In this document: positions 8,103-58,203 of the stretch, piece by piece
How the letters are laid out: every line of letters begins with the position of its first letter
Numbering within the stretch: position 1 is the first letter of the stretch
Source of the DNA: Physcia stellaris
Taxonomy: Eukaryota > Ascomycota > Lecanoromycetes > Caliciales > Physciaceae
NCBI GenBank assembly: GCA_018902385.1
Contig: JABSSW010000015.1
Location: 372,001-436,000, forward strand
DNA length: 64,000 nucleotides
Direction: 5' to 3'
The notes under the pieces: model-generated
Databases searched by the model: none
The model's input: only the letters and a program-made list of their open reading frames with translations
Told to the model about the DNA's origin: nothing
Translations under genes and position numbers: made by a program

Positions 8103-8204
8103 TAGGGATGTGCAGAACGCACTGGAATCTCTTGGCGAAAAAAATTTACTTTTTCGCACTTCGCATCAGATTTCGATGCATCTTCTGAAATTTTCAATTT
8201 TTCT
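8103..8204 (+). repeat. left terminal inverted repeat of element C
   Basis: About 102 bp, matched in reverse complement at 24844-24945. Shared blocks include GTGCAGAACGCACTGGAAT, CTTTTTCGCA, and GCATCAGATTTNGATGCATC. A weaker match continues inward to about 8290 (block TGTATATTTCG). Confidence 0.85.
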
Positions 8205-8413
8205 GGTTCATTGCTTCACACAGTTTTTTGTTACATCATTTGACGTGATAAAAGTTTGTATATTTCGTTTATCATTTTTTTGATGTTTGTTTTTCGTCGA
8301 ATTTCGAAATCATGAAAAATTCATTGTCGTCAACGATTCGTTTCAAGATCGTTCGTTATTTATTGTGTCATTGACGTTTTGATATTATTGTTCAAAAATT
8401 CATTATGTTGTAC

Positions 8414-8418
8414 AGATT
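8414..8418. repeat. target-site duplication of element B, left copy
   Basis: The 5 bp AGATT lie immediately outside the left LTR of B and are identical to 21645-21649. Confidence 0.85.
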
Positions 8419-8626
8419 TGTAAGAAATAAAAATTCAGAATTTTCGGAAGTGCGACTCGCATCTCGTCAAGCAATTCGATTATCGAAGTTCGAATGATTT
8501 CGAAAAAATCAGTCTCAATCATTTTACAATTCGATCAACGATAAACTCAACAAGTTCATATTTTCAGTCGAAATCGATCGAATTCGTACGATTGAGTAGA
8601 TAAGATGCAGATAAAAAGCAACTGCA
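8419..8626 (+). repeat. left LTR of element B, first part
   Basis: 208 bp, colinear with 21325 to about 21533. This copy keeps more C and G than the right copy. It is cut at 8626 by the insertion of element A. Confidence 0.88.
8622..8626. repeat. target-site duplication of element A, left copy
   Basis: CTGCA, also the last five bases of the first part of the left LTR of B. The partner is 15225-15229. Confidence 0.75.
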
Positions 8627-8865
8627 TATCATTTGAATCGTGCTTGAATAGACGTATTATTGACTAGCTAGACGAAAACAATAAGTCTGCAGAAACAAAT
8701 AGATATAGAATGATGAAATTGTAAACAGTGTGCGAACGTCAAGTTTCAAATCACGTTAATCTCGTCAGAAAATTAAAGCATAATTCGATTCAGACATATC
8801 TGTTTAATCATTTATCATATCAATTATCTATTTGTCAGATTTATCTGTCAGACATGTTCGTAACA
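8627..8865 (-). repeat. LTR of element A (3' LTR in element orientation)
   Basis: About 239 bp, direct repeat of 14988-15224, ending GTTCGTAACA on the plus strand. It is the less mutated of the two copies at most differing sites. Confidence 0.88.
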
Positions 8866-11800
8866 TTATTTTTTTCTTTTCGCGAGCGTCGTTTCGACGA
8901 TTCGTTGTTGTTTCGAGATTTGAAAATTTTGTTTGATCAAGTTGTATGATCGCAAAATTCAGAAATTTCACGATCATCATTTTTCATTTCTCAGTATTTT
9001 ATTGTCATTTCAAAGTTCGATAAGATTTGACAACAACTTTTGAAAATGTTTTTGACACGATTCAGTTCTTTATGCGAAATAAATTCTGATTGTAAATAAC
9101 ATCGAAATAGCAATAAAAATTGAATTGTTGTATAAAAATCGTGATGTCAAAAACAAATGAATGAAAATTGAATTCGTGACGTCAAATGTTAATCGAAAAT
9201 AATTTCGATTAATGTCAACATGACGATTTTTTTTCGAAAACGACGACGATTCGTTGAAAAATTTGATTCGTTGACGACGATTTGAAATATTGAAATTAAC
9301 GTTTTGAACGATTTTGAATTTGTTGTCGTGAAATGATTACGATGAAAATCGTTCATCACATCGCGAACATTATCGAATTTTTCGTTGTCGACATAATATC
9401 ACGTTCGATCATGAAATCAGTTTGATCAATTGACACGATATTGAAAACGATTGTAATGATATCGAAATTTCAAAATATCGTTCATTTCTCATTCGAAATT
9501 CTCGTTGATTATGACGAAATCGAAAAATTCATTGATTTGATTTTCGAAAAAATCACGAGAATTTTTGCGAAAAAGTCAACAATGAAACACATCGTAAATT
9601 CGCATGATTTTTGACAATTCGAATCGATAAAAGTTGTTTTTACGTTTTAGTATTTTGTACGAGTTTAATTTTTGTCATCAAGTTTGTCAAATGATTTGAT
9701 CGTTTTGATGTTTCGTCGATTTAAAAAAACGAAATTTTTTCGACGTATTTCACGATTTTTCGATGTTTGTTGATTTGAATAATAAATGCGTTTTTGAATC
9801 ATTTTTGCATGATTTCGTACGTAATTGAAAATATTTTGCATCGTGTCGATGATATTTTTTGTTTTGACGATCAAAAATCGTTTTCTCGTTGTAACATACG
9901 AAATAAAATTTGATGAAAAATTCATACGAAAATGAAAATTTTTATTGATGAAAAATGATGATAATTTTGTTGTTGCAAATATCGCGTTGTTGTTTGCAAA
10001 CTCGATCATGAATAATCAAACGTTTCAATCATTTTGCATGTAATTGCAATATTGTCGCAATTGTTTTTCGATATTTTGATTGATTTTTTCGATTTGTTTA
10101 TCGATTTTGAATGAAAAACGATGAAAAATTTACATTTGATGTCGAAAATTTTGCAAAATGTTTATCAAACGAATGATATGAATTGAAATTTTCGATTTGA
10201 CGTTATAAAAAAAAATAATTCATGCGTACGAAACACGTAATTGATAAATATTTTGATCGTGATTTTCGCATTTGTATTTTTATCGTTGACGATGCAAAAC
10301 ACGTAATGACGTTTTTTATTAAATTTGTCGATTATCGTGCAAATGACGTTATGATCGTAAACGTCGAACAATTCGATAATAAAATTCATGAATATGTCGA
10401 TTCAACGTTGCAAAAAAATGATCAAAAAATGAATAAATCATTTTTTCGATTTCGAGAAATTTTCGTACGTTGACATTTATGACAATTGCGTACGTATCGA
10501 CGAACGAATTTGCGCATGTTGAATCAATAATAATCGCGACGTATAAAATTTTTCATACGATTAAAATTTGAATGTTTCGAAATCGAAAATTCATGAATTT
10601 TTTTGAAAAAATCAACGAATAAAAAAACGTCGACAAACATTCATAATCGATCATTTCGATATAAAACATCGTTTTTTTCATTGCAATTTCGTAAATCGAT
10701 TTCGTTCATTGAAATGAAATTTTGTTCGATGATTTCACGATACGTCGTGCAATCATCGTCAACTTTATTGACAATCAAAATTCGTTCATAAATAAATTCG
10801 TCAAATTTTATCGCGTGAATTTCGAATCGTTTTGAAGTGAACAATATTTGCTTTCGATATTGATGTCGCTCATCAATTTCGTTTTTGAATCGAAAATCAA
10901 ACATACGAATCAAAACATTTGTTTTGACGTTTTGAGTTTCGAATTGAAATTGAATGACAATGTTAAATTTCGAGAGAATTTTTGCTCAACGAATTTGACG
11001 AAAAATAAGTTTTTTTGACGTCATGAAAGTTTTCAATTTCTTGTGATCGATAAAGATTTTGATCGATTTTTCGATGTTTTCGAATTCAAAACGTCAATGT
11101 TTTAAACAGCGAATAATGACTAATAGTTTTTTGTCATAAATTTCGTAATTGCATTCGATTGAAATCATGTTGCGATTGTAAAAAGCAACGAAATGCAACA
11201 CTTTTTCGTCGTCATATTGAAATAATATTCTTGCATTGACGTAATCAAAAAAATCGATTTTCAAAATGACTTGTTTGATTCGATCGTAATGTCGTAATAT
11301 GAAAATTTCAATCATCGTTTTTTTGAAAAGATTGAAAAATTTTTCGATTTTTTCAATTCATTCGAAATTCACAAACTTCTTGATCATTCGAATGAGAATT
11401 CGAATTTTTTTCGAAAAATCACGAATGAATCGTTTGTAAAAATTGACGAAATTTACGAAAATTTGTATTTTTTTCAAATTCGTAAAGCGTTTTCAATTGA
11501 CAATGATTTTTATTTTTTTCGAATTCATGCGAAAATCATTTATCGATAATATGACGTTCAAAAATGTCATTTTTTTTTTGAAAAATTCGCATTTTTCAAT
11601 ATTCATTTGTAATTCGATTTTTTTGAATTTTTTCAATATTTTACGAACGTGAACGATATGCTTTTTTTTGAATTTGTTGTAAATGAAAATATCATTTAAA
11701 TAAATTTGACAGAAATCGTTCTGTTCAATCGTACACACAGCAGAAAATTGAATAACAAATCGTTCATGTAATGTTGTCAATTCGCGAATTCGTTGATCAA

Positions 11801-14800
11801 TTCGAAAAATAACATTCGATATTTGTATGATTTCATGAAAATAACGAACGTGATAAATTTTTCATTTTTTTCATTCATTCGAAATTTGTTGAAAATCGAT
11901 ATAATATTCAATTTAATCAAATATTTGCAATTTTGCATTTTGATTAAAGTTTTTTCGATCAAAAAAATGAAATATCGATTGCGTTTCGTGATGTGATTAA
12001 ATCGTCGATAATTCACACACAAACGTAATTGATCGTTCGATTTAATTGCAAATAAAACGAACGAAACGTATACAATTTGATTGAATACGATAAAATTTTT
12101 TTGAAAATTATTTTTCAAATATTTTTTTTTTTTTTTGAAAGTTTGAATTCGAACAAAAAATATATTTTGCTTCGAAACAATGAATTGTTATCGTTTAAAA
12201 ATTCGATTTTTGATCGTAAAATCGATGCGATAACAATTGATGATTTTTGAAAATCGAATATTTTTGACAAATGTTTGAAATATTTGAATATTTTTTCATT
12301 ATGCGTTCAAAAATCGACTTGATTTGTTCGTGTTTCAGAATTTCTTTGATCATGACAGCAATTTTCAACGATTCAAAATTTGTTCGCAATGTTTTGAACG
12401 CGAAATCGATTTGATTGATCGTAATGAAAAAACATTGCATTTTTGTTTTTTATTTTTGAAATCGACGAATAAACAAAAAAATTGCATCAATCATCGCGAT
12501 ATTCATGAATCGTTTGAATTCAATTTCGATGATGAAAAAAAATTTCGAAATGTTGTTTTTGATTTTTCAACGTTTGTTGCGTTGTTTTTTCAAGTTTTTT
12601 TTTTGATGAATGTCGTTTTCGTAATTGTTGTGATATCAATTTTTGAATCATTTGATTCGATGATTGACGATTCGTCATCGTCATCGACATTCGAATGAAT
12701 TGAACATTCGAAACATTTCGAATCGAATACATTTGATTCATTTTCTAAAAAAACAAAAACTTGATTTTGAAACGAAACAAAATGATATATCGAGATTTTA
12801 TCATCGTTATATGTTTCGAATCGTTTTTTTGCGATAATAAAATATCACGACGTCAATTAGATACATTTCATCGACGATTTGATTTGAAAATTTTCAAACG
12901 TCGAATTTGAACAATTTGATTGAAATTTGAATATATTGTCATGATGATTGCATTTAGACGATTTGAAAATCAATTTATCGTAAATCATGAAAGTATGATT
13001 TCATGTTTGTTCATTCACGATTTTTTAAAATTATCGAATGATTATTCAAATCGATGATTAACAAAAAAACGATCAATTCGAAATGCAATTTATCGTTAAT
13101 TTAAAATATATGACATAAATTATTGAAAAATTTGACGATCGTCGAATTCAATCAATGATTTCGATTTCAATAAAAATACGAATTTTATGTTCAACATGTT
13201 GCATACAAATTGCGCGATTTTTTTATCAATGAATGCATAATCAATTGCATCAATGTTTATTAAAATTTTTAATTTATGTTTATTATCGTTGAATGATAAC
13301 GTACAATTGATAATTAAAAATCGTTTGATGAAAAAATCAAACAAATCATCGTTGTGAATAAAATTTTTTTTAAACATTTATCAATCGCGTTTTTGATGTG
13401 AATTGTTAATTTTTCGAATCAAAATCATTCGATTCGACGATTAAATTCATGTACGATATTTGCATTTTGTGTCAATGACGTTTTTGATGTTTGTGAACGT
13501 TCGAACATTTTTTTCAAACGTGATTCAATTCGTCACATGTGAAACATTTGTTCGTGACGATTAATTTGTCAATCATCGAATCACGAAATTTGATTTTTAC
13601 ATTGAAATGAAAATGAATCGTTAATTTCACAAAAAAAACGAATGTAACAAATTTCGTGAACGATATCGAAATCGAAACGACAAAAATGAATTTGAATTGA
13701 AATAATTCAAAACGTTGTTGACGTGTTGTCGTTTTTTTTTTTTTGAAATTCGTTTGTCGATTGTAAATTTGTTGAAAAATGATTTTGATTTCGTCAAAAA
13801 TGATAAATTCACGAAAATACACGTTCATAGTTTTTTTCAAATTTCAAAAAATTTTTTTCATTAATTTTTCAATTTTGATAATTTCGTTATAATCTGTTGA
13901 ATTATTGAAACGAAAAAAAATGAAATAAAACGATTAAAATTTTTTGAATATTCATGATCAATGTTCGAAATTGATTACGCATGTTGCGTTTGAAATCAAA
14001 ATTATCGTAAATGTTTGACAAAAATTTCAACATCATAAATCAATTTTTGAAATGATTGAAATCGATATCACGTATCGATTGAATGTGATCGTCAATTTCG
14101 TCGACAATTCAATCAATAACAAAAATAACGACGAACAGATTCGTATTGTAATGATCGTTGTTGATCGTCATTTTATCATGCATTTTCGTTTTTCACACAC
14201 GTCAAATGAAATTCATTTCATCGATAAACGTGAATGAATCAAAATGTTTGACGAAACGACGTTTTTTTGAAACGTTGAAAACAAACGCATCGTCGTCATC
14301 GTTGTTTTCACGTTTTTTTTCGTTGATCGATAAAATTTGATATTTTTTTCAACGCGTCGTATTTGTTTTGAAGAATGTTATAAATTGCATCGTTTTGAAT
14401 TTTCAAAAACGTTTTTTTGTTAACTCGAAATTAATTTTTGCGAATTTGTTGATATTATTTTGAAATTCGTTACAAATTTTGATATTGATTAAAAACTTTC
14501 AAGTAAATGTTTCGATTCGAACGAAAATTTTTTGCAAAAACGATATTTATGATTTTCGATTCATCATTTCAATTGATTGACGTTGATGACGTTCAAAAAT
14601 GAATGATATCGTCATTTTTCATCGATACAATCGATCGAGAAAACGAACTTGCGACGTTTGAATTGAATAACAATTTTTTTCAAAATGTTTGTCGTATTTG
14701 TTTCAAATGACGATCGACTTCGACACGAAAAATTTCAAATGACGAGATTTCAAATGAAGAAAAACTATGATGATTTCGAATCATAACGAGAAATGAAAAC

Positions 14801-14987
14801 TGACGATTGTAAATAAAGAAAAAATTTGTTTATTGTTTGTTTTATCGTTTTTTATCGTCGAAGATTTCGTCGTTGTCTCATCAGAAAAGTTTTTCGTCGT
14901 TTGTTTCGTCAGAAAAACTTGATCGATTTGAAATCTTATTTTTGAACGTTCGCGTATCTCGACGAGCGATAAAGATGAAAATTTATT

Positions 14988-15224
14988 GTAATAATGAATC
15001 GTGTTTGAATAAACGTATTATTGATTAGTTAAACGAAAACAATAAGTTTGCAAAAACAAATAAATACAAAATGATGAAATTGTAAACAATGTGCGAACGT
15101 TGCTTCAAATCACGCTAATCTCGTCAAAAAATTAGAACATAATTCGATTCAGACATATTTGTCTAATCATTTATCATATCAATTACTTATCTGTCAAATC
15201 TATTTGTCAAACATGTTCGTAACA
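14988..15224 (-). repeat. LTR of element A (5' LTR in element orientation)
   Basis: About 237 bp, direct repeat of 8627-8865. The inner boundary is uncertain by a few bases because the first ten positions align poorly. About 24 substitutions separate the copies, 23 of them at CpT/ApG. Confidence 0.85.
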
Positions 15225-15229
15225 TTGCA
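15225..15229. repeat. target-site duplication of element A, right copy
   Basis: TTGCA, differing from the left copy by one C/T transition in a CpT context, in line with the mutation pattern of the island. Confidence 0.75.
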
Positions 15230-15340
15230 GAACGTAATCTGTTCTGTAACGATTAATAAATCAATATATTACATTTCAAACTATACATTTCTGATGTCAA
15301 TAATTCATTAAATTATATTATTTCTAATACGAATTTTACA
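15230..15340 (+). repeat. left LTR of element B, second part
   Basis: 111 bp, colinear with about 21534-21644. It continues the LTR after element A and ends TTTTACA, like the right copy. Confidence 0.88.
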
Positions 15341-18300
15341 TTTTAATCGTTATCATATTTCAAAATAATGTCATTCGTGTATATTTAACAAAACACAATT
15401 TTGTTGTCTCGCATACATCATGTCGAGTTCTGATAATGATTTGTTTTTTGAATTTGTCGAAAATGTTGATTTATTTTTTTGATTGATTTATTACAAACAA
15501 CAAATCGAAAAAAATCACAAAAAAAAATCAGATTCAAAATTCGAATTGTCGAACGTTCGAAATTTGCAATTTTTATTTCATTTATTTTTGTTTCTGTTTT
15601 TGTTTTTGATTTTGATTTTGTTTGAAAATTTTTCGTCATGAAAATTATCAAAACAACATCGAATCAATATAAAAAAAAAATTACAAAAAAAATGAAAAAA
15701 ATATTGCAAACAAATGAAAAATTAATTCACGCAAAACAACGTGAATCATATGATTCAATTTTCGAATTTGATCAAAATCGCATATGCTGATATTTATTTT
15801 AAATCAGACAGCAATGCGAACAAATTTTGAAACGCAAAAATCGATTTTCATTCAAACAAACAATACATTTGAATCGAATTCAAAATTTTTTTTAAAAACG
15901 ACATCGAGCGAACAATCACGTTGCAACAAAATTTTTGAAAAATATCGCAAACACAAACAAAATCACAATCAATCGATTAAAAATTACAATGTCGAACGAG
16001 TAAATATGTTTGCTGAATTGAAATTCGAATTCAAATTCACGAAAACAATGAAATTCAACGATTTTCGTGACGAATTACGTTTGAAATTTCGTTGCATGTT
16101 TTTAAGAAAAAAAAATTTTTACAAAAACGAAAGTTGTTTGAACGATTCAAACGTATGAAAAACGTTCAAATTTTGAAAAAAATTCAAAAATTTCAAAAAC
16201 GTAAAGATTTCGTTCGATATTGACAATTTTGAAAATGAAAACGAAAAATTCAAAATTGCGAAATTCAAAAATAAAAAAATCAAAAATATTAACAAAATCA
16301 ATTCGAATCACGAAGTCAATCAAATCAAAAAATATTCGAATGTATCGTTGATTCGTCAACGAATTTCAAAAAATTCAAAACAAAAATAATTATATAAATT
16401 GTGACAAATCAAATTATCAAATCGAAATTTGCACAAACAAAAAAAACAAAATCATTTTCGTTGATCAAATTTTTGAATCAATCAAAAAATTAATCGATTT
16501 GATGATTTTCGCTCAAATCGTTAAAAAAAAAAAATTTTCGAATTTCGATTTCGATACGTCATTTTTTTTCAGACATGAGCAAAAATCATGTCAACAAAAA
16601 AAAAACGACGCAAAAAATTTAAAAAATTTATAATTCGTAAATGCGTCAAAATCAAAATTAACATACAAAACGAAAATCGAACTTGAAACGAATCGAAAAC
16701 AATATTCGATACAAAAACAAAAATTAATTTGATAAATCATGTTTATGCGAAAAATTAAATTTTCGTCGTTTTGAAATTTTAAATTGTGATACAATAACAG
16801 TTGACAATCATCGTTTGAAAACATATGACGTTTATTTCGTACAATTCGAAATGTCAAACGTCAGAAAAATTAATCGTTTTTTCGAAAAATCGTTTTTGAT
16901 CGTGAATTTGAATTGAAATTTAACGTTAAACATGTTCTGAATACAATTTTCGAAAATCAAAATGAATGAAACGACGACAGTATCAAAACTTGACGTTGCA
17001 AAAAAAACATTTCATTTTCATCACGAATCGTATCGAAAACATCGAATCAAAACAATTGACAAAAAACGTCATCGATAACGAAATCGAAACGTATTTCATG
17101 TTCGTACGAATGTATATTGACAAACAGTTCGACATGCATGAAATGCACGTTTCAAAACGAATTCAAATAGAATTTGTTTTGACGAAAATGAAAAAAAATT
17201 CGATATCAAAATCACGTTTTTCGAAATTTTGAAAACGTATGAAAAACTCGATAACGAAAATAAAATTTACGAATTATCGAATCATGATTCAAACGATCAT
17301 GTTATTGATTTAAAAAAAAACAAAAAATCGTCGCATGAATCAATCTATTTTTTATTTGAAAATGAGTTTCGAATATTACGTGCTTACATCGAAAAACATT
17401 TAATTAACGATTTCATTCGATTTTCACAATTTTTTGCAAAAACGTTCATTTTGTTCGTCAAAAAAAAAAACGATAATTTACGATTATGTGTGAATTACAA
17501 AAATCTTAATGTTTTCACGATAAAAAATAAATATTTTTTATCGTTAATCGATGAAAATTTAAATAAATTCAGCAAAATCGTCAAATATATCAACATCGAT
17601 TTGATTGTTGTTTATCATCGATTGCGTATCAAGCATGAAAACGAATGAAAAACAACTTTTCGTATTCGATATGATCATTTCGAATATAACGTATTTTTTT
17701 TCGATTTCATTAACGTTTCGACGACGTTTCAAGATTTTATCAATCGAATTTTGACGATTCGTTTCGATATTAACGTCATAATATATTTGAACGATATAGT
17801 AATTTATTCGATGAACGTCGAAATTCATATCGACGATGTCAAATGAATTTTTGATCGTTTTAAAAAAAATAAACTATATATTGTTTTTGAAAAATGCAAA
17901 TGATTCGTTGACGAAATAAATTTTCTTGAATTCGTTGTTTCATTCAAAAATACGAATGCAAAACAAAAAAATCGAAATTATTCAACAATGATTTGTATTT
18001 CGCAACGTTTTCGACATTATGCAATTTCTCGACATCGTTAATTTTTATCGACGATTCATTAAACATTTCAATAAAATTGCTGAATTTCTGATCGTTATGT
18101 TAAAAAAATCGCAAAAATTACGAAAAAATACTCGTAAACGTAAACGATATCGAAATTGCAACAAATTTTCGAATATTTACATTTTTTGATCAATAAAACG
18201 TTGAAAATTTTCAAACGATTTCGCAAAACATTTATCGAAACATCAATTTTACGTCATTTCGATTTCGAACGTGTTATTCGAATCGAAATCGACGCATTCG

Positions 18301-21300
18301 ACAAAATCATCGAAATCATTTTATGTCAACAAAACGACGAAAATCATTGATATTTTGTTGCGTATTTTTCGCGCAAAATGATTTCGACCGAATGCAATTA
18401 CGAAATTTGACAAAAAATTGCTAATTATTGTGATTTCGTTCAAACAAAAAAAACATTATTTCGAAAACGCAAAAAAGCAAATTTTTGTTTTTATTGATTA
18501 TCGCAATCTGAAACAATTTATGATCACAATTAAATTATCGTCACGTCAAATTCGATGAATTCAAAAATTGAATCGATACAATTTTTTAATCGATTATCGT
18601 TTCGATAACAAAAATTTTGTTGACGAATTTTCGAAACGATTTGATCACATGATGATTATTAAGAAAAACGTCGAAAACAATCGTCAAATTTTGAAACAAT
18701 TGCAAAAGTCATTGATCGCAAACTCGAAACGTTTCGAAAAATGCGAATAAATGCGATCAAAATCATGAATGCGATACATGTCATGAAACGATTCATGAAT
18801 ACGATGCATAACATGAAACGTCGATCGCATTTAAATGATTTAACAATCGAATCAATCAGCGTTGTTTCGAAAACATTTGATTCAAAAAATTCAAAACGAA
18901 ATCGAATTTCAATCAACGTTGTTTCGAGAATATTCGATTCAAAAAATTCAAAAAATTCGAAACATTCGACTGAACAAAAATCAGACGTGACATTCATAAA
19001 ATGAAAAATTTTTGTGTTAAAATCAGCGATTGTATTTGAATGCGCAATGCATAAAATTCGAATACAAATTGTTTTACGAAAAAAAGCGACATATAACGAC
19101 GAATCAACACAATTATTGTTGAATTTCGTTCGTGATTTGATCGTTAAAAATCAATTCGTTTTTGAAATATGTCGAAAATTAATTATTTCGAAAACAAAAA
19201 CAAATCATTGACAACACAAAAATGAATTTTTGTATTACGACGACGTTGTTTATATTTAAAAAAATTTGCGTGAAAACATTATTCGTGTCAATCACGATAA
19301 TTCGTTCGTTAATTATTTCGACATCGAACGAACGTTGAAATTGATACGTCGAAAATATTATTGATCGAATCAAAATTTTATCGAAATTTTGAAATGCGAC
19401 AACAAATCAAAAACATTGTGAAACATGCGTCGTTTGCAAACGAAACAAAATTTCACGACACAAATCATACGACGAATTTTTTTTTCAATTTTTAAATTTA
19501 AATGAATTGATTTTTTCATGAATTTCGTGATTCAATTTTTTTCAAATAAAACGTGAAATGAAACGATTTACGATTCGATTTTAATAATGATAAATCGTTT
19601 AACGAAAATAATTCATTACATATTAATTATTAAAACGATTTTCGCAAAAAATTTAATCGAAATCATATTTCGCGAAATTATTCGATTTTACGATTTTTTT
19701 TCGTCAATCGTCATCGACAAAAATTTCATTTTCACATTCAAATACAACGATGCGCTGTGTTACGTTTTGAAAATCAAACGTAAATTGTTAATCGTTTTTC
19801 ATTTTCAAATCGATGAACAAATCGAGCGAATGAACAACGTCATGAAACAATTTTTCGCGTTTTCGTCAATTTCGAGCAAAATGATTGAATGAAGTTGTTG
19901 TTCATAATCGAATTCATTTACAATAACAACAAACATGCGTTCACAAACATTTTTTCGTTCGAAATTATGCTTGAATATTCGTTTCGCATGTTTTCGAAAA
20001 AACATGAAACAAAAAAATTAAATTCAAATTCGCAAAAAAACACGTTGAACATTTAATTGAATTATTTCGAATATTGAAAAACAATTTATTCGTGACACAA
20101 CAACAACAAACGAAATACAAAAACGAACGCACGAAATCAATGTCATATAACGTCGAAAATTACGTGAATTTGAACGATAAAAACATCAAAATTAAACGAA
20201 ACAAAAAATTGAAATGAAAATTTTTCGAATCATTCAAAATTTTAAAAATTATAAAAAATCAAGTTTATCGTTTAAATTTATTCAAACGTTGACGCATTCA
20301 CAACGTTTTTCATGTTTTTTTTTTAAAAAAATTCAATTTTAAAAGAAAAAAAAGCGCGCAAACGTCACAATTTTTTGAATTTTCGTATCAAATTGAAAAT
20401 ATCGAATTCGACGAAAACATGAAAATGAAAATCACGAAAAAGTTTTATGAAATCGAAATCATTAAAAATAACAAAATTTTCAAAACAAATGAAATTTCAA
20501 ACAAGTTTTACAACGAATTCGATTTTTATTATTTAATAAAATGAGAAAATTATGAAAACGCGATCTGAAAATTTGCATCGTTTGTCAAGCATTTTCGAAA
20601 AATTTTGCGACAATTTCATAACGAGAATTCAAAAAAATCTGATGTCAATAAAAAAACAAATCATCGAAAATCAAGAAAAAAATGAATTGAAATATTTATT
20701 GCATGTTAACACATTTTCGTTTTCAAAATTTTGTGTGTTATTTATTGTTTAGAATTTACGACGCATGAAAAATTGAATTGTGTCAAAAATATTTTCAAAA
20801 ATTGTTGTTCGATTTGATCGAGCGATAAATCGTTGAATAAAAAATATGAAATGAAATAAAAAAAAAAATTCGAAATTTGAATATCAAATGCGATCGCGAT
20901 TAATGAACGTTTATCGCGTTACACATTTTTTCATGATATCGATGTTGATATTCGAAATAAAAAAATGAAAAAATGAAAAAATGTTCGAATTCAGAATTTT
21001 CTGTCAACAAATCAATTGTCAATCATCATATCGAAAATTGTGAATTGTACGAAATCAAACATTCGATCATGAAAACAACAAACAATTGATTCATCAAATT
21101 ATGTTTTTTTTGAAACATTCAAAAAGATGTTTTTCAAATTTTTAACGCAAACTGATTATTGAATTCGAACGAAAATATTTCGAGATGCGAAAATCACGAT
21201 CATAATGATTTTTCAAATCAATGCAAAATCAAGACAAGCAAAACACGTCAAGACAAACAGAATACGTCAAGATTTTTGTTAACATGTTGATTTCAAAAAA

Positions 21301-21324
21301 CTTCGATGTTTAAAAAGAAACGTA

Positions 21325-21644
21325 TGTAAAAAATAAAAATTCAAAATTTTCGAAAATGCGATTCGCATTTCGTCAAACAATTCGATTATCGAAATTCGAA
21401 TGATTTCGAAAAAAATCAGTTTCAATCATTTTACAACTCGATCAACGATAAACTCAACAAACTCATATTTTCAATCGAAATCGATCGAATTCGTACGATT
21501 GAATAGATAAAATGCAAATAAAAAGCAACTGCAAAACGTAATCTGTTCTATAACGATTAGTAAATCAATATATTACATTTCAAGTTATACATTTCTGATG
21601 TCAATAATTCATTAAATTATATTATTTCTAATACGAATTTTACA
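21325..21644 (+). repeat. right LTR of element B
   Basis: An uninterrupted 320 bp copy, TG...CA, which shows how the left copy was split. It differs from the left copy by about 21 substitutions and a 1-nt length change. Nearly all of the substitutions are at CpT/ApG. Confidence 0.9.
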
Positions 21645-21649
21645 AGATT
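21645..21649. repeat. target-site duplication of element B, right copy
   Basis: The 5 bp AGATT lie immediately outside the right LTR of B and match 8414-8418 exactly. Confidence 0.85.
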
Positions 21650-23130
21650 GTTTATATCATACAAAAAAACATGTTCGTTTATGACGACATGATTGACAAA
21701 CGATTTCGTTTTCGATTCATTGACGTTTTTCGCAAAATTCACGTGACGATCGAAAAATTTTTGATCAAATATCTAGACGAACAATCATAAACTATGCAAA
21801 AAAAATGATGTAATTTTTATGAAAAAAATAAAATTTATTCGTTTATCGAATCACGATATCAAAAATATTGAAAAAATTAAATGAAATGCGAAAAACGTTC
21901 GTCGCATCGAATTTCGTCAAAACGAGAAATTTCGTATGTATTGATTCGTTGAATTTTTCGATTGTATCGCGAAACAATTGATTTACATCGACGAGTTTTT
22001 GTTCAACGAATTTATTGATTGACGTTTTCGAACGTATATTTCAGTTGATCAATTCGATCGATATCATGCAAATCGAAAAAAACTACTTTTGATGTATTTT
22101 CTTTGCATACACGTTGAAAAATTAATTTTCAAATCGATTTCGAAAATATTTATTAATTTCACAAACTATTTACTTTGTACGACAATTAAACAAGATTGAT
22201 TCAACGTCGAAAAGTTTTACGATTGATTATTACATCAATTTTTATTTTTTTGCAATTTTTTTTTTGTTTTTCGAAACGTTATCATAATGAACAATGTCAC
22301 AATACATACAAATTTTCGAATCAAGAAAATTATTGAACAACATGACTGTCAAGTTCGTTATTTTTTTTCGTATTTTTTCGATTTCAATTCAATTGAATTG
22401 AATTTTTCTGTTTTTAAAATTTGAATTAAACAACATTTTCATGAAATATGATCAAATTATGACGACGATTTTGAAAACTTTTTAAAATACGCAATAAAAA
22501 AAAATCAATGTGACAAATTTTTTAAAAAACATTTCAAACATACGATGTACGATCGTTTCATTTTCGAAATCGATATGCAAAATTTCAATGCACGATTGAT
22601 CGTTCAAAAATTCGATATAAATTTTGAATAAAAAAATATTTTTATTTGTTAATAAATGATTGCAAAATCGATGTATTATTTCAATTAATCATAAAATTTT
22701 GTATCGAAACATTCACATTATTTTCAATCAATTTATTCATGTCGCAAATTAGACAACGCATTCGCAAAACGTCATTGCGATTTGAAACGTTTCAAATCGT
22801 CGTCGAAATCAAACGTTATATCGTCAAATATATTCAAATCGATAATTCGTTGATGATGAAATTTCGAAAAATCGAACATGATTTTCAAATGTTTTGTTTT
22901 GAAAAATTTGATTTTCATTATTTGCGACATCGTTTTGAGTTTTTTTTTTTCATTTTCGCGAAGAATGTTTTGTATTTTTCAATTGAAAAAAATCGTTACG
23001 ATGTTTGATTCGTTTTCGAGAACGTCAATGAAATTCGACGAAACGTTGAAAATAAAATTTTTGTTGTTATTTGACAACGAATTCGACGAGATTGAATTCG
23101 AAAAAATTGATCGTTTTACAAAATCGAAAA

Positions 23131-23220
23131 ATGATGAAAAAGATGCACGACGTCGACGAAATGATAAAAAAAATGCACGATGTCGACGAAATGACGAAAA
23201 AAATGCACGACGTCGACGAA
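23131..23220 (+). repeat. three tandem 30-nt units inside element C
   Basis: Three units of exactly 30 nt (23131-23160, 23161-23190, 23191-23220), each ending GTCGACGAA, with a partial fourth after them. The shared period is a multiple of three. One frame gives repeated KKMHDVDEM; another gives a basic, Asn/Arg-rich repeat. This may be a charged tail of the transposase or a simple tandem expansion. Confidence 0.75.
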
Positions 23221-24843
23221 ATGAAAAAATTCATGACGACGACGACAACGACGCGATTTAAATTCAAGAAAAAAAAATCTTGTCGACGAATTGTACGTTT
23301 ACTCATTCGATTCATGATTTTCATGACGTTTTGATGCATGTCGATTTTCATGATTTTTTTTTGCATTTTCAAACATGTTTGCATCATGTTTTGCGTATTC
23401 AAAATTTTTTTTTTTCGTTTTTATTTGTTGTGTTTGTTGTAAAAACTTTTTCGAAAAATCGTTATCGAATTTTGAATTTTCGTTAAATCATTTGTACAAT
23501 TTGAAAAACGATTTTGTAAACGTTATATCAAGTTTTTTTGTTGAATAATTTTGATTCATTTGAATTGCTGCTTTTGTGTCATGTTATAATGATCGTTGTC
23601 ATCGTTTACTCAATATCAATTTTTTTTTTATCATCAAATTCAAATTTCGAATTGATGCAACGTTCATTCATACATATTCAGCGATTCATCAAGTTTTTGT
23701 TGAGTTTGCTCATCGTTTCGAATTCGATTTTTCGAGTTTTCGCTTGCTCAAACAACTGATTCGTACGTGTAAAACGCTGTCTGAATCGTGATGTAATTGT
23801 AATATTTTTTTCGATCGAATCATTTGAAAACGACTCACGTATTCGTTTCTTTTTTGTTTTTTTCGCTGTTTCGACAAATTGTTTATCAACGACGACGACG
23901 ATGTTGAAAATAATAACGAAATTGAGTTTTCATTCTTTGTTTTTTGCAATGATGAGCTCGATCAGTGAATTTCATTCGATTTGTGATAATTTTTTCATCG
24001 TTTTTCGTTTTTGAATAATTTTATTATGTTTGATTTTAACGATCGCAAAAATGATAATAATGTTTCATTTCAAATTTTTATCGTTTTTTTGCGTTATAAT
24101 TTTTCGAATTGATTTTCGAGATTTAAAATTTTGAAATCATTGAAAAAACGTTCGTCGAAATTATTTTTTCAAACGTGTTTTTATCGATTCGATAATTGAC
24201 GTTGACGATGATTAAAAAATTGCTCTGAATTTTCTCAATCGTCAATTTTTTCAAATTTGACGTGAATATATTATCGTTGTTGTCTCGATCGATTGTCAAC
24301 TCGTTCAAATAACGACGTTTGATTTTCTTCTCGTCAAATTGAATCATTTCAGTCTTTCATGCTTTTTTTTTTTCGATTTTTTTTTGAATTTCTTTTTTTT
24401 GTCATCGTTCAACGATTTTCGTTTGACGTTCATTCTCGAGTCGTTATCGCTTTCGAGTTTTTTTGATCGTCGCAATATTGTTCGAGTCGCGTTCAATGAT
24501 TTCAACATTTGCGACGATTTCGAGCGTGTTTTCGACGACGAGAAAAAAAAGATTTTTCTTCGTAAACGATCGACTGTTACGAGCAAAAAATTGAACAAAA
24601 AAAACTTGAACGAAAAGAATTTGAACGAAAGAAATTTGAACAAATGTTTGAGCAACACGCAAACGTTTTGACGATTGTTTGACACGAATGAAAATTCGAA
24701 AAAAAAAAAACATCGAGAATTTTTTTGAAAAATCATTTTGATTGCGACGATGAAAAAACATGATCGAAAACATCAAAAATATGTTAAGCGAAATATACAG
24801 AAACTTCGATGCAACAATTCAGATATCAACGAAATGTGAATTA

Positions 24844-24945
24844 CAAAAATTGAAATTTTCAGAAGATGCATCAAAATCTGATGCGAGATGCGAAAAAGTT
24901 TTTTTTTTAATGTCAAGACATTCCAGTGCGTTCTGCACATTCCTA
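24844..24945 (-). repeat. right terminal inverted repeat of element C
   Basis: Reverse complement of the left terminal repeat, with scattered differences. The sharp change back to ordinary base composition coincides with its outer end at 24945. Confidence 0.85.
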
Positions 24946-55237: not shown

Positions 55238-58203
55238 ATGAATCTAATCAAACCCGTCATGGCTTTTATGCAGCTGTTCTTAGAGTTTTTCTTGGAGATC
55301 TTCTCGTGCACCCCGGTCCAAGTCGTCGCCATTGCCATTTTCTTCTACTACGGCCACCATCAGTATGTTTTGGAGGCAATATATATGATGATCGAGTCCT
55401 TCATGCACATTGTCGAGGTGAGTGTGAAAGTAATACTGCAATCCTTGCAGGCTGATCTCAGATATAGTACCGGTATCAATATTTCGAAATCGTTAAAGTC
55501 CTCGCTATACTCGGCCTCATAATCTACTTAGCCGCCTATTTAATCCTTCTCGCCCGCGCACATCTTGGAAACGAGCTCAACAAAGCGGTGGCAGATAACG
55601 AGATTCTAGCCCAGAGAATATCCTACCTTACAGAGCAGCTAGAGGACTCACACTTAAAAATCGAGAAGATCACCAGTCATCGTGATTCTGTTATGGACGA
55701 CTACTCGGAGAAATCCATCGCTCTCGAATTAATGACGGATCGTGCTGAAATAGCCGAGTGTCGTCACGCCGAAGCTGAAAGCAATTGCCAAAGCGATATG
55801 GACATCATCGTTCGCCTAACCGAGTACGCTGAAAGCTACAAGCGAGCCCGGGATTCCATGGCGGGAAAACTTGAGTATCAAGCAGATCTCCTAAACAGAG
55901 TCAAGTTCTGGAAAGAGGCTGCTGGAGTCGCTGAGAAGGACTGCTCCGCAAACCTTGTCGACCACCAAAACAAAGAGAACAAACTGAAAAAGGAGATCAG
56001 GAAGCTGAAAAGAGCCAACGACCAGGCGGGTTGCCGGGAAGTTGAAGATCAAAAATGTATTGAGGATCTTAGGAACAACAACAAAGAACTCAATGCCAAG
56101 GTGAACAACCTTACTCAGGAGGTCCAGGAAATAAGTACCGACCGTGGAAAACTTCAGAAAGAGTTGAATACGACGCAAGATGAGCTGAAAACGACGCAAG
56201 ACGAGTTGAAAAGGACGCAAGACGAGCTGAGGGACTCTGAAGAACAGCTTACCGAATACAAGGAGGACACGGAGGAGCGTAATAAAGAGATAGCGACGGT
56301 CAAAAAAGTCAAGAGCACACAGGAGACGGAGCTCAGAGATCTGAAAAGGCAATATGCTATGGCGGAAGCTGCTCTGAAATACTTCATCAGCGTACCGGGA
56401 GATGACACTGGCAACAACGAGACCGATCCTTCCATAACTGAAGACGGCCCTAGCTCATCCGGAGCAGGTCAATCTAATTCCAAGGAATCCCCGAGCGCGG
56501 ATGGCTCTGGCTCAAGCGGCTCTCAAAGCGTCTCGGAGAAGCCTGGAGCAGCTGAAAATCATCCATCAAACCCTTCTAGTGTTTCGACCCAGCCCAATAT
56601 TGTCCAATCGGGCCCTGACGACTCACCTGAAAAGCCTGATGCAGGTCAGAATGATTCATCAAATCCTCCCAGCAGTTCGATCAAGGCTGATGTTGAACAA
56701 TCGGATCCAAGCGACTCACATGAAAAGTCCAATGCAGGTCAAAACGATCTATTAAACCCTCCCATCGATCCGACTGTTGACCAATCGGACCCTAGCGAGT
56801 CACCTGAAAAGCCTGGTGCAGATTTGAGCGGTCCATCAGATCCTCCCAGCGATTCGACCAAGCCTGATGTTGACCAGTCGGACCCTAGCGAGTCACCTGA
56901 AAAGCCCAGTGCAGGCCAAAATGATCTACGAGAGCCTCCTAGCGATTCGACCGAGACCGATGTTGAACAATCGGACCCCAACGACTCACCTGAAAAGTCT
57001 ACTGCAGGTCAAAATGATCTATCAGAGCCTCCTAGCGATTCGACCATGCCTGATGTTGCGAACTCTAGCGATTCACCAAGCGAATCTGAAAAGCTCAGTG
57101 CAGGTCAAAACGATTCATCAGAATCTTCTAGCGCTTCGATCAAGCCTGATGCCAATCAATCGAGCTCTAGCGACCCGTCAAGCGAGTCTGAAAAGCTCAA
57201 TGCAGAAAAAACTGATTCATCAGAGTCTCCTCATGACTCGAGCAAGCCTGAGACCGATCAATCGGATGACAGCAACCCATCAACCGGATCTGCAAAGCTT
57301 AGTGAAAATCAAAACCATTCCTTACAGCCTTCCAGCGATTCAACCAAGCGTGACGTTGATCAATCGAGCCCTAGTGAGCCATCAAGCGGATGTGAAAAGC
57401 CCAGTGCAGATCAAATTGATCCTTCAGAGTCTCTCGGTGACTCGAGCAAGTCTGAGGCCGATCAATTGAATCGCAGCAACCCATCAACCGAGTCTGAAAA
57501 GCTCTGTGCCGATACCGACTCAAATAAGCCTGACGTTGATCAGTCGAATCACAACAGCCCATCAATCGAGTCTGAAAAGTTCGATGTTGATATCGACTCG
57601 AATAAGCCTGACGTTGATCTATCAGCTTCCAGCACTTCATCGACCGAAGCCGAAAAGCTCAGTGCCGATAGCGACTCGAGCAAGCCTGATGTTGATCAAT
57701 CGAATCATAACAACTCATCAATCGAGTCTGAAAAGCTCGGTGCTGATATCGACTGGAACAAGCCTGGCGTTGATCAATCGATGTCCAGCAATCCATCAAC
57801 CGAGTCTGAAAACCTTAGTGCTGATAGTGACTCGAGCAAGCCTAATGTAGATCGACCGACTCCCTCCAATCCGCACAGCGAAACCGAAAACCCCACCACA
57901 AATCAAAACCATCCATCAGACTTTCCTGGTGACTCGAGCAAGCCTGATGCTGATCAGTCGAATCCCTTCAATCCGCTCAGCGAAACCGAAAACCCCAACG
58001 CAAACCAAAACCATCCATCAGACTCTCCTACTGACTCAAACAAGCCTAACTTCAATCAGTCAAATCCCAGCACCCCATCAAGCGAAACCAGAAACCCCAA
58101 TGCAGCGCAAACTGATGCAACAAAGCCTCCCAGCAAACCTAAGAAAGGAAGTGGCTACTCCTGGATAGGCATAGAACCTGGTCGAGGTCGCAAGCAAGCC
58201 TAG
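55238..58203 (+). CDS. two-TM, coiled-coil protein with long Ser/Asp/Pro-rich tandem repeats, unknown function
   Basis: Two exons, 55238-55417 and 55468-58203, give 971 residues. The N-terminal 90 residues contain two hydrophobic segments (VQVVAIAIFFYYG near 27-40; VLAILGLIIYLAAYLILLA near 70-89). A coiled coil runs from about 100 to 370 and includes tandem heptads TTQDELK, TTQDELK, RTQDELR (about 289-320). From about residue 440 to 945 come around 15 repeat units, each ending near KPDVDQ. The unit length is 31, then about 34, then 26, then 34 residues. The tail is basic (KPKKGSGYSWIG...GRGRKQA). The 50-nt intron (GTGAGT, ATATAG) joins HIVE to YRYQYFEIVK, completing TM2. No family is recognised; it may be a lineage-specific wall- or membrane-tethered protein. 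The repeats are probably disordered and highly charged or phosphorylatable. Confidence 0.78.
56620..58120 (+). repeat. coding tandem repeat array in the two-TM coiled-coil protein
   Basis: Each unit has the form SESEKLSAGQND...SSDSTKPDVDQ. Early units are 31 codons (93 nt), the next about 32-34, a middle block of five is 26 (78 nt), and the last two are 34. The shortened block lacks the QND...ES portion and reads SADSDSSKPDVDQ. This shows successive array expansion with an internally deleted unit. Confidence 0.8.

Follow-up and report, generated by a model that had tools for sequence, protein, structure and literature searches.

The stretch analysed here, a 64,000-nucleotide window of the genome of the lichen-forming ascomycete Physcia stellaris (Physciaceae, Caliciales; G000:C15:372001-436000), contains a 16.8-kb nest of transposons in which cytosines followed by a pyrimidine (CpC and CpT, together CpY) are strongly depleted. 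The genome examined comprises 43.97 Mb in 147 contigs; a published draft of the species has 46.57 Mb in 184 scaffolds and comes from a culture raised from ascospores (PMC7513301). Self-matches by blastn and the end sequences resolve the island into an outer element bounded by terminal inverted repeats (TIRs) of ~100 bp, an element B inside it, and an element A within the left long terminal repeat (LTR) of B (Table 1). An internal piece of the outer element (22300-22900) gives 10 genomic matches, its own included. Those at G000:C2:972936-977754 are collinear but in four pieces, as if this copy carried insertions too.

The island (8103-24945) has a GC content of about 0.27 and holds 3 CC, 6 GG, 157 CT and 200 AG dinucleotides, together with 1026 CA, 1044 TG and 1055 CG. 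Measured against 200 base shuffles of the island, CC/GG are reduced to 9 vs 613 (sd 21) and CT/AG to 357 vs 1664 (sd 33), while CA/TG reach 2070 vs 1659 (sd 32) and CG 1055 vs 305 (sd 16). Between 8447 and 24922 a single CC/GG remains. Relative to the flanks, NCC stands at 0.00 in the core and NCT at 0.08-0.23 across 5’ contexts, but CCT at 0.00, and on either side a 50-bp edge profile is back to normal composition within some 100-200 bp. The original prediction had described stretches (12001-12120 and 16021-16080) devoid of CC, GG, CT and AG, which direct counting bears out; hypermutation directed at CpT and CpC is confirmed as a real feature of this DNA.

The LTR pairs reproduce the earlier counts exactly: 19 CpT, 1 CpC, 1 CpA and 0 CpG changes separate the LTRs of element B, and 23 CpT, 1 CpA and 0 CpG those of element A. 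Each pair holds 2 further transitions whose neighbouring base also differs, and element B shows six transversions at its 3’ edge, outside the self-match that defines the LTR. The claimed target context, CpT and CpC rather than CpA, stands, whereas the apparent lead of CpT in these pairs does not, CpC being the stronger and, judged by the stages seen, the earlier target. The LTRs display mainly CpT changes because CpC is already exhausted in them. Given that pairwise comparison of LTRs masks exhausted contexts in this way, a reference copy of high GC content was sought.

Such a copy is L045, which has a GC content of 0.50 in the matched part. Its alignments, as long as 3.4 kb, are with the 11 mutated copies that matched it over 300 bp among 30 fetched RVT_1 loci. 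C-to-T change affects 0.978 of CpC (4374 sites) and 0.866 of CpT (4548 sites), compared with 0.070 of CpA (4345 sites) and 0.034 of CpG (4026 sites), and the CpC rate exceeds the CpT rate in 11/11 copies. The 5’ base has a small effect (overall C-to-T fraction 0.47-0.58), and across +2 bases the rates range over 0.86-0.88 for CpT, 0.92-0.99 for CpC and 0.03-0.15 for CpA. Both strands are hit equally (CpY change 0.923 and 0.913), and all other substitutions together amount to 422 of 34247 sites (1.2%). The change is thus directional, near saturation and governed by the 3’ neighbour in the order CpC > CpT >> CpA > CpG. Dipyrimidine damage, by ultraviolet light or otherwise, could be considered for lichens, which live exposed, and CC and CT are indeed dipyrimidines; TC is one as well, yet TCA changes at 0.07 and TCG at 0.03, and DNA of normal GC content is spared, and we reject this explanation as having practically no chance of being correct.

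As CpY change near 92% contrasts with 1.2% of other change, the process looks like a directed burst rather than ordinary decay. A slower route, in which repeats acquire CpY methylation, as in methylation induced premeiotically (MIP), and the 5-methylcytosine is then passively deaminated, would fit the presence of methyltransferases, a target set by the 3’ base and the occurrence of copies at several stages. It sits poorly with the near-saturation and sharp edges of the mutated stretches, and the ratio of CpY to other change is far above that of passive 5-methylcytosine decay; we consider this route improbable.

The usual diagnosis of repeat-induced point mutation (RIP) relies on indices built on CpA, for which the classical thresholds are TpA/ApT >= 0.89 and (CpA+TpG)/(ApC+GpT) <= 1.03. 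The island falls on the wrong side of both (TpA/ApT 0.385, substrate index 1.355), and CpA-to-TpA change does not dominate. Classical thresholds select 0/393 low-GC windows of the fetched loci, and RIPper-type criteria (product >= 1.1, substrate <= 0.75, composite >= 0; the published set, 1.15/0.75/0, is stricter) 0/32 windows of the island. With the neighbour rule reversed from CpA, the standard indices therefore do not flag the mutated repeats. Could CpA nevertheless have been mutated first, so that only later differences, at CpT, are visible? Pairwise comparison does hide exhausted contexts, RIPCAL saw CpT changes overshadow CpA in Neurospora Tad1 (PMC2621366), CpT came out as the dominant form when a survey aligned its RIP-capable controls (PMC7882544), and Copia families of Colletotrichum truncatum called as CpT have a TpA/ApT of 1.64-1.67 and a substrate index of 0.09-0.12 (PMC6180176). 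Such saturation is rejected for P. stellaris, with virtually no probability left to it, by the 2070 CA/TG of the island, its two indices and the polarised CpA rate of 0.07.

The same pattern recurs far beyond the window. A genome search with the element B LTR found 233 candidate copies; 40 were scored, and the 30 best matches to the window copy were fetched and aligned. Their invariant columns include 32 CG and 17 CA but 0 CT and 0 CC, and the columns varying in a C/T manner comprise 42 CT, 18 CA, 5 CG and 3 CC, with 17 more varying otherwise. When 500-bp windows of the fetched loci (repeat matches plus 12 sample stretches, and hence not an even sample) are ordered by GC content from about 0.50 to 0.22, CC falls from 60 to 0 and CT from 67 to 5, while CA goes from 68 to 57 and CG from 55 to 50. 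CpC is lost first and CpT next, whereas CpA and CpG hardly move; loci L049, L050, L059 and L061, in which CpC is already low, look like intermediate stages. In an arbitrary sample of 12 stretches of 4 kb at round coordinates (96 windows), about a fifth of the windows are low in GC (18/96), and 15 of these 18 are strongly CpY-depleted, compared with 0/78 of normal GC content.

Mutation is restricted to repeats in the sample seen, with sharp edges, on many contigs and in several families, the low-GC windows not each being confirmed as repeats and one pair of repeats, discussed below, being exempt. A base bias of the whole host is rejected, since CpY/CpR is about 1 in the flanks and in normal windows. 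A foreign or contaminant origin is likewise rejected: many contigs are affected, the island shares a normal contig with adjoining DNA of normal composition, and the culture was raised from ascospores (PMC7513301). Three outcomes had been named beforehand as speaking against the interpretation, namely CpA-dominant change among repeat copies, the same CpY deficit in unmutated host DNA, and a differently biased source for the island. None was seen in the sampled data: copies from many contigs changed predominantly at CpC and CpT, normal-GC DNA was intact and nothing indicated another source, which supports the earlier interpretation. A search of viral_contigs and genome_contigs for relatives of one retroelement piece in other species gave 4 and 22 pattern matches, none of them confirmed.

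The mutator has also left its mark on transposon reading frames. In-frame stops number 250 TGA, 33 TAA and 3 TAG in RVT_1 (TGA 250/286; 150 matches scored of 527 candidates), 401 TGA, 101 TAA and 3 TAG in RVT_2 (TGA 401/505; 137 matches of 165 candidates, some match rows being pieces of one copy), and 44 TGA, 3 TAA and 0 TAG in DDE_1 (TGA 44/47; 10 matches); across 29 RVT_1 loci (truncated L057 left out) TGA accounts for 48/50 stops. Such an excess is what a change of TGG to TGA (GpG to GpA) produces. RIP of the CpA type is expected to yield TAA and TAG, and the surplus of TGA is therefore characteristic of the altered context.

An enzyme resembling AID/APOBEC or tRNA deaminases, editing repeats or retroelement cDNA, would be another source of C-to-T change, and the zinc deaminase family PF00383 is represented by eight matches in the genome, no search having been made for APOBEC-type families. 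For AID/APOBEC enzymes, however, the selecting neighbour is the 5’ base, which does little here and shows no clear preference; both strands are hit equally, and DNA transposons share the TGA pattern. A rule that depends on the 3’ base and hardly at all on the 5’ base fits recognition of the C5-methyltransferase type, not AID/APOBEC, and we give the deaminase explanation very little chance. The best PF00383 match (G000:C64:178666-179121) itself contains 4 in-frame TGA codons, indicative of introns or of a hypermutated copy.

The original prediction had proposed a system like RID or DIM-2, or another deaminase, and had asked for homologues of the former. Both are present, and the latter has become less likely in view of the small 5’-neighbour effect. 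A PF00145 profile search of the genome returned four matches in three genes, on contigs C3, C5 and C6. The C3 gene is related to DIM-2, matching 9bap_A at 2e-181 over residues 220-905 (PDB 9bap/9baq); we take 9bap to be Neurospora DIM-2. The C5 gene (C5:498855-499792) encodes a class-I, RID/Masc1-like methyltransferase of 932 amino acids (P0001) with the motif PCQFFS..EQT and matches the P. stellaris protein G7Y79_00005g016670 (99% over 99% of the query, which extends into an intron). The C6 gene (C6:791557-792528, L001) is a shorter class-I paralogue with the motif PCQSFS..EET and, apparently, two introns. Relatives of both class-I genes occur in Heterodermia (P0008, P0128). The C6 gene has a group of relatives of its own (P0121-P0158), the one named member of which comes from the lichen fungus Heterodermia, and it falls apart from the C5-type RID group. 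A tree of 33 of 112 proteins (named from 237) plus the C6 gene, kept if the catalytic motif was found and at least 230 residues were present, splits the C5 and C6 groups (100/100) and leaves their order with other fungi unsettled.

Taken together, these data make it probable that P. stellaris possesses a RIP-like, repeat-directed defence converting C to T at CpC and CpT, attributable to a RID/Masc1-class enzyme with flipped 3’ recognition and acting before meiosis. The species would have, or would recently have had, an activity that acts on repeats, changes CpY on both strands and spares most CpA and CpG. The mutator would be a RID/Masc1-class enzyme of the C5-methyltransferase type, encoded at C5:498855-499792 or C6:791557-792528; its preference for the base following the target cytosine may have flipped from purine to pyrimidine, and by analogy with RIP its activity might be premeiotic. 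An enzyme of this class is favoured because RIP of new duplications in Neurospora requires RID. The more specific proposal, that RIP was rewired in this lineage by a RID/Masc1-class enzyme with inverted 3’ recognition, possibly the short C6 paralogue, we put forward as a tentative one, less likely to be right than the general scheme.

Several observations weigh against this reading. Strong CpY depletion is missing from three of the 18 low-GC windows in the arbitrary sample, and 7/393 low-GC windows of the fetched loci are not CpY-depleted, some of them intermediate stages; RVT_2 copies are also richer in TAA (101/505) than RVT_1 copies (33/286). CpA is mildly raised, at 7%, reaching 15% in L055 and 0.149 at CAC, so that a minor second activity at CpA is possible. 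L055 has the highest CpA rate, 0.15 vs 0.03-0.11 in the other ten copies, which hints at such an activity or at greater age. Not all repeats are hit: L046 and L047 share 95% identity over 3.47 kb without CpY mutation, and their differences show no context bias. These two loci (G000:C5:1166521 and G000:C12:60312), which match reverse transcriptase, look Ty3-like by eye and have a GC content of 0.52-0.53, either escaped mutation or arrived recently. Nor can the motif PCQFFS alone have caused the switch: it recurs in C5-type proteins of two Gyalolechia records, and Gyalolechia flavorubescens is among the RIP-affected fungi of the RIPper survey (PMC7882544). The motif differences between the C5 and C6 proteins likewise yielded no link to the choice of neighbour.

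The preference for RID over DIM-2 is a weak one, since old Neurospora repeats are RIPed even without RID and stop being so only when RID and DIM-2 are knocked out together (PMC11969663). This makes DIM-2 a serious rival: rather than a RID-class enzyme, it could produce the changes via the heterochromatin-linked RIP pathway described in Neurospora. The gene is present, and a 2026 review credits Neurospora DIM-2 with methylating non-CG sites with a CpT preference, although a table in the same review gives all CpN contexts (PMC13297926). Zymoseptoria Dim2, moreover, promotes change at CpA, and CT sites there are almost devoid of 5-methylcytosine (PMC8016269). We regard DIM-2 as an unlikely author of the pattern, albeit the least unlikely of the rivals, and retain the RID/Masc1-class enzyme as the preferred candidate.

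Features of the island are collected in Table 1. Elsewhere in the window, at 55588-58203, lies an open reading frame of 871 amino acids that includes an extended, degenerate repeat region rich in Ser, Pro and Asp, with spacings of 78 and 102 nt.

Table 1. Positions in the window of the hypermutated island and its nested elements.
Feature	Position	Strand	Evidence and remarks
CpY-hypermutated repeat island (nested transposons)	8103..24945	.	strongly mutated core about 8250-24850; CC/GG 9 vs 613 shuffled
Outermost element, left TIR	8105..8202	+	TA target duplication 8103-8104; inverse blastn self-match 87.5% over 104 columns
Outermost element, right TIR	24845..24943	-	TA duplication 24944-24945; self-match and end sequences
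Element B left LTR, part one (split by element A)	8419..8626	+	91.9% identity to 21325-21533
Element B left LTR, part two	15226..15340	+	95.7% identity to 21530-21644
Element B right LTR	21325..21644	+	self-match; 30-copy alignment; 233 candidate copies genome-wide, 40 scored
Element A left LTR, inserted in element B left LTR	8634..8867	+	88% identity to 14995-15226; 342 genome-wide candidates, 40 scored
Element A right LTR	14995..15226	+	self-match with element A left LTR
Longest run without CpC, CpT or complement (837 bp)	12992..13829	.	sequence count

If a RID/Masc1-class enzyme has indeed been rewired, the RIP mutator of P. stellaris would be one whose specificity was switched in nature: it would generate TGA stops, leave CpG and CpA in place and go unnoticed in surveys based on CpA. 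Cladonia metacorallifera and G. flavorubescens are lichen formers that belong to the class with 5-9% RIP in the RIPper survey (PMC7882544), which suggests that the neighbour rule can change from one relative to another. A survey from 2025, covering 1,239 fungal genomes, describes RIP-like defences as sharing a CpA preference (PMC12543289). The switch provides a natural experiment on how RID picks its target: candidate genes are few, with three found, and repeat-tester strains of Neurospora without rid are available (PMC12543289). The pattern is also a reason to add CpY indices to RIP tools and to re-read genomes scored as RIP-free.

Among known systems, Ascobolus MIP, which depends on Masc1, shares the class-I methyltransferase family and the direction towards repeats, but in the available account MIP only methylates (PMC4352252). 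AID/APOBEC hypermutation has C-to-T change in common with P. stellaris, which differs by its 3’-base rule, the lack of a clear 5’ rule, the involvement of both strands and the inclusion of DNA transposons. The CpG-type mutation of Basidiomycota (Mvio, Mlar and Pgra in Amselem et al., 2015) and of Tuber is likewise a repeat-linked C-to-T bias, whereas CpG is the least affected context in P. stellaris (0.034, about 3%, with 0 CpG changes in both LTR pairs). In Botrytis, Sclerotinia, Magnaporthe, C. truncatum and Anisogramma, too, transposons carry CpT changes, and for the first three a RID-class gene accompanies them (Amselem et al., 2015; PMC4352252). In the accessible text of that study, however, CpT appears together with CpA and the term 'CpC' has 0 occurrences; Anisogramma is described as CpA plus CpT, and C. 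truncatum was called family by family, its CpT families having depleted CpA indices (PMC6180176). From these partial accounts, we read CpT-dominant alignments in CpA-type fungi as CpA exhaustion, unlike P. stellaris, in which CpC leads and CpA is largely spared. We recognised no report of RIP confined to CpC and CpT in the literature searched, as far as its texts were available. With RIP of the Neurospora type, P. stellaris shares C-to-T change on both strands, C:G-to-T:A transitions far above other substitutions, targeting of repeats, near-saturation, sharp edges and the presence of RID-class and DIM-2 genes; it departs from it in hitting CpC and CpT rather than CpA and in its opposite indices. 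We regard the pattern as a new variant of RIP, one that lacks the canonical CpA signature yet works like RIP.

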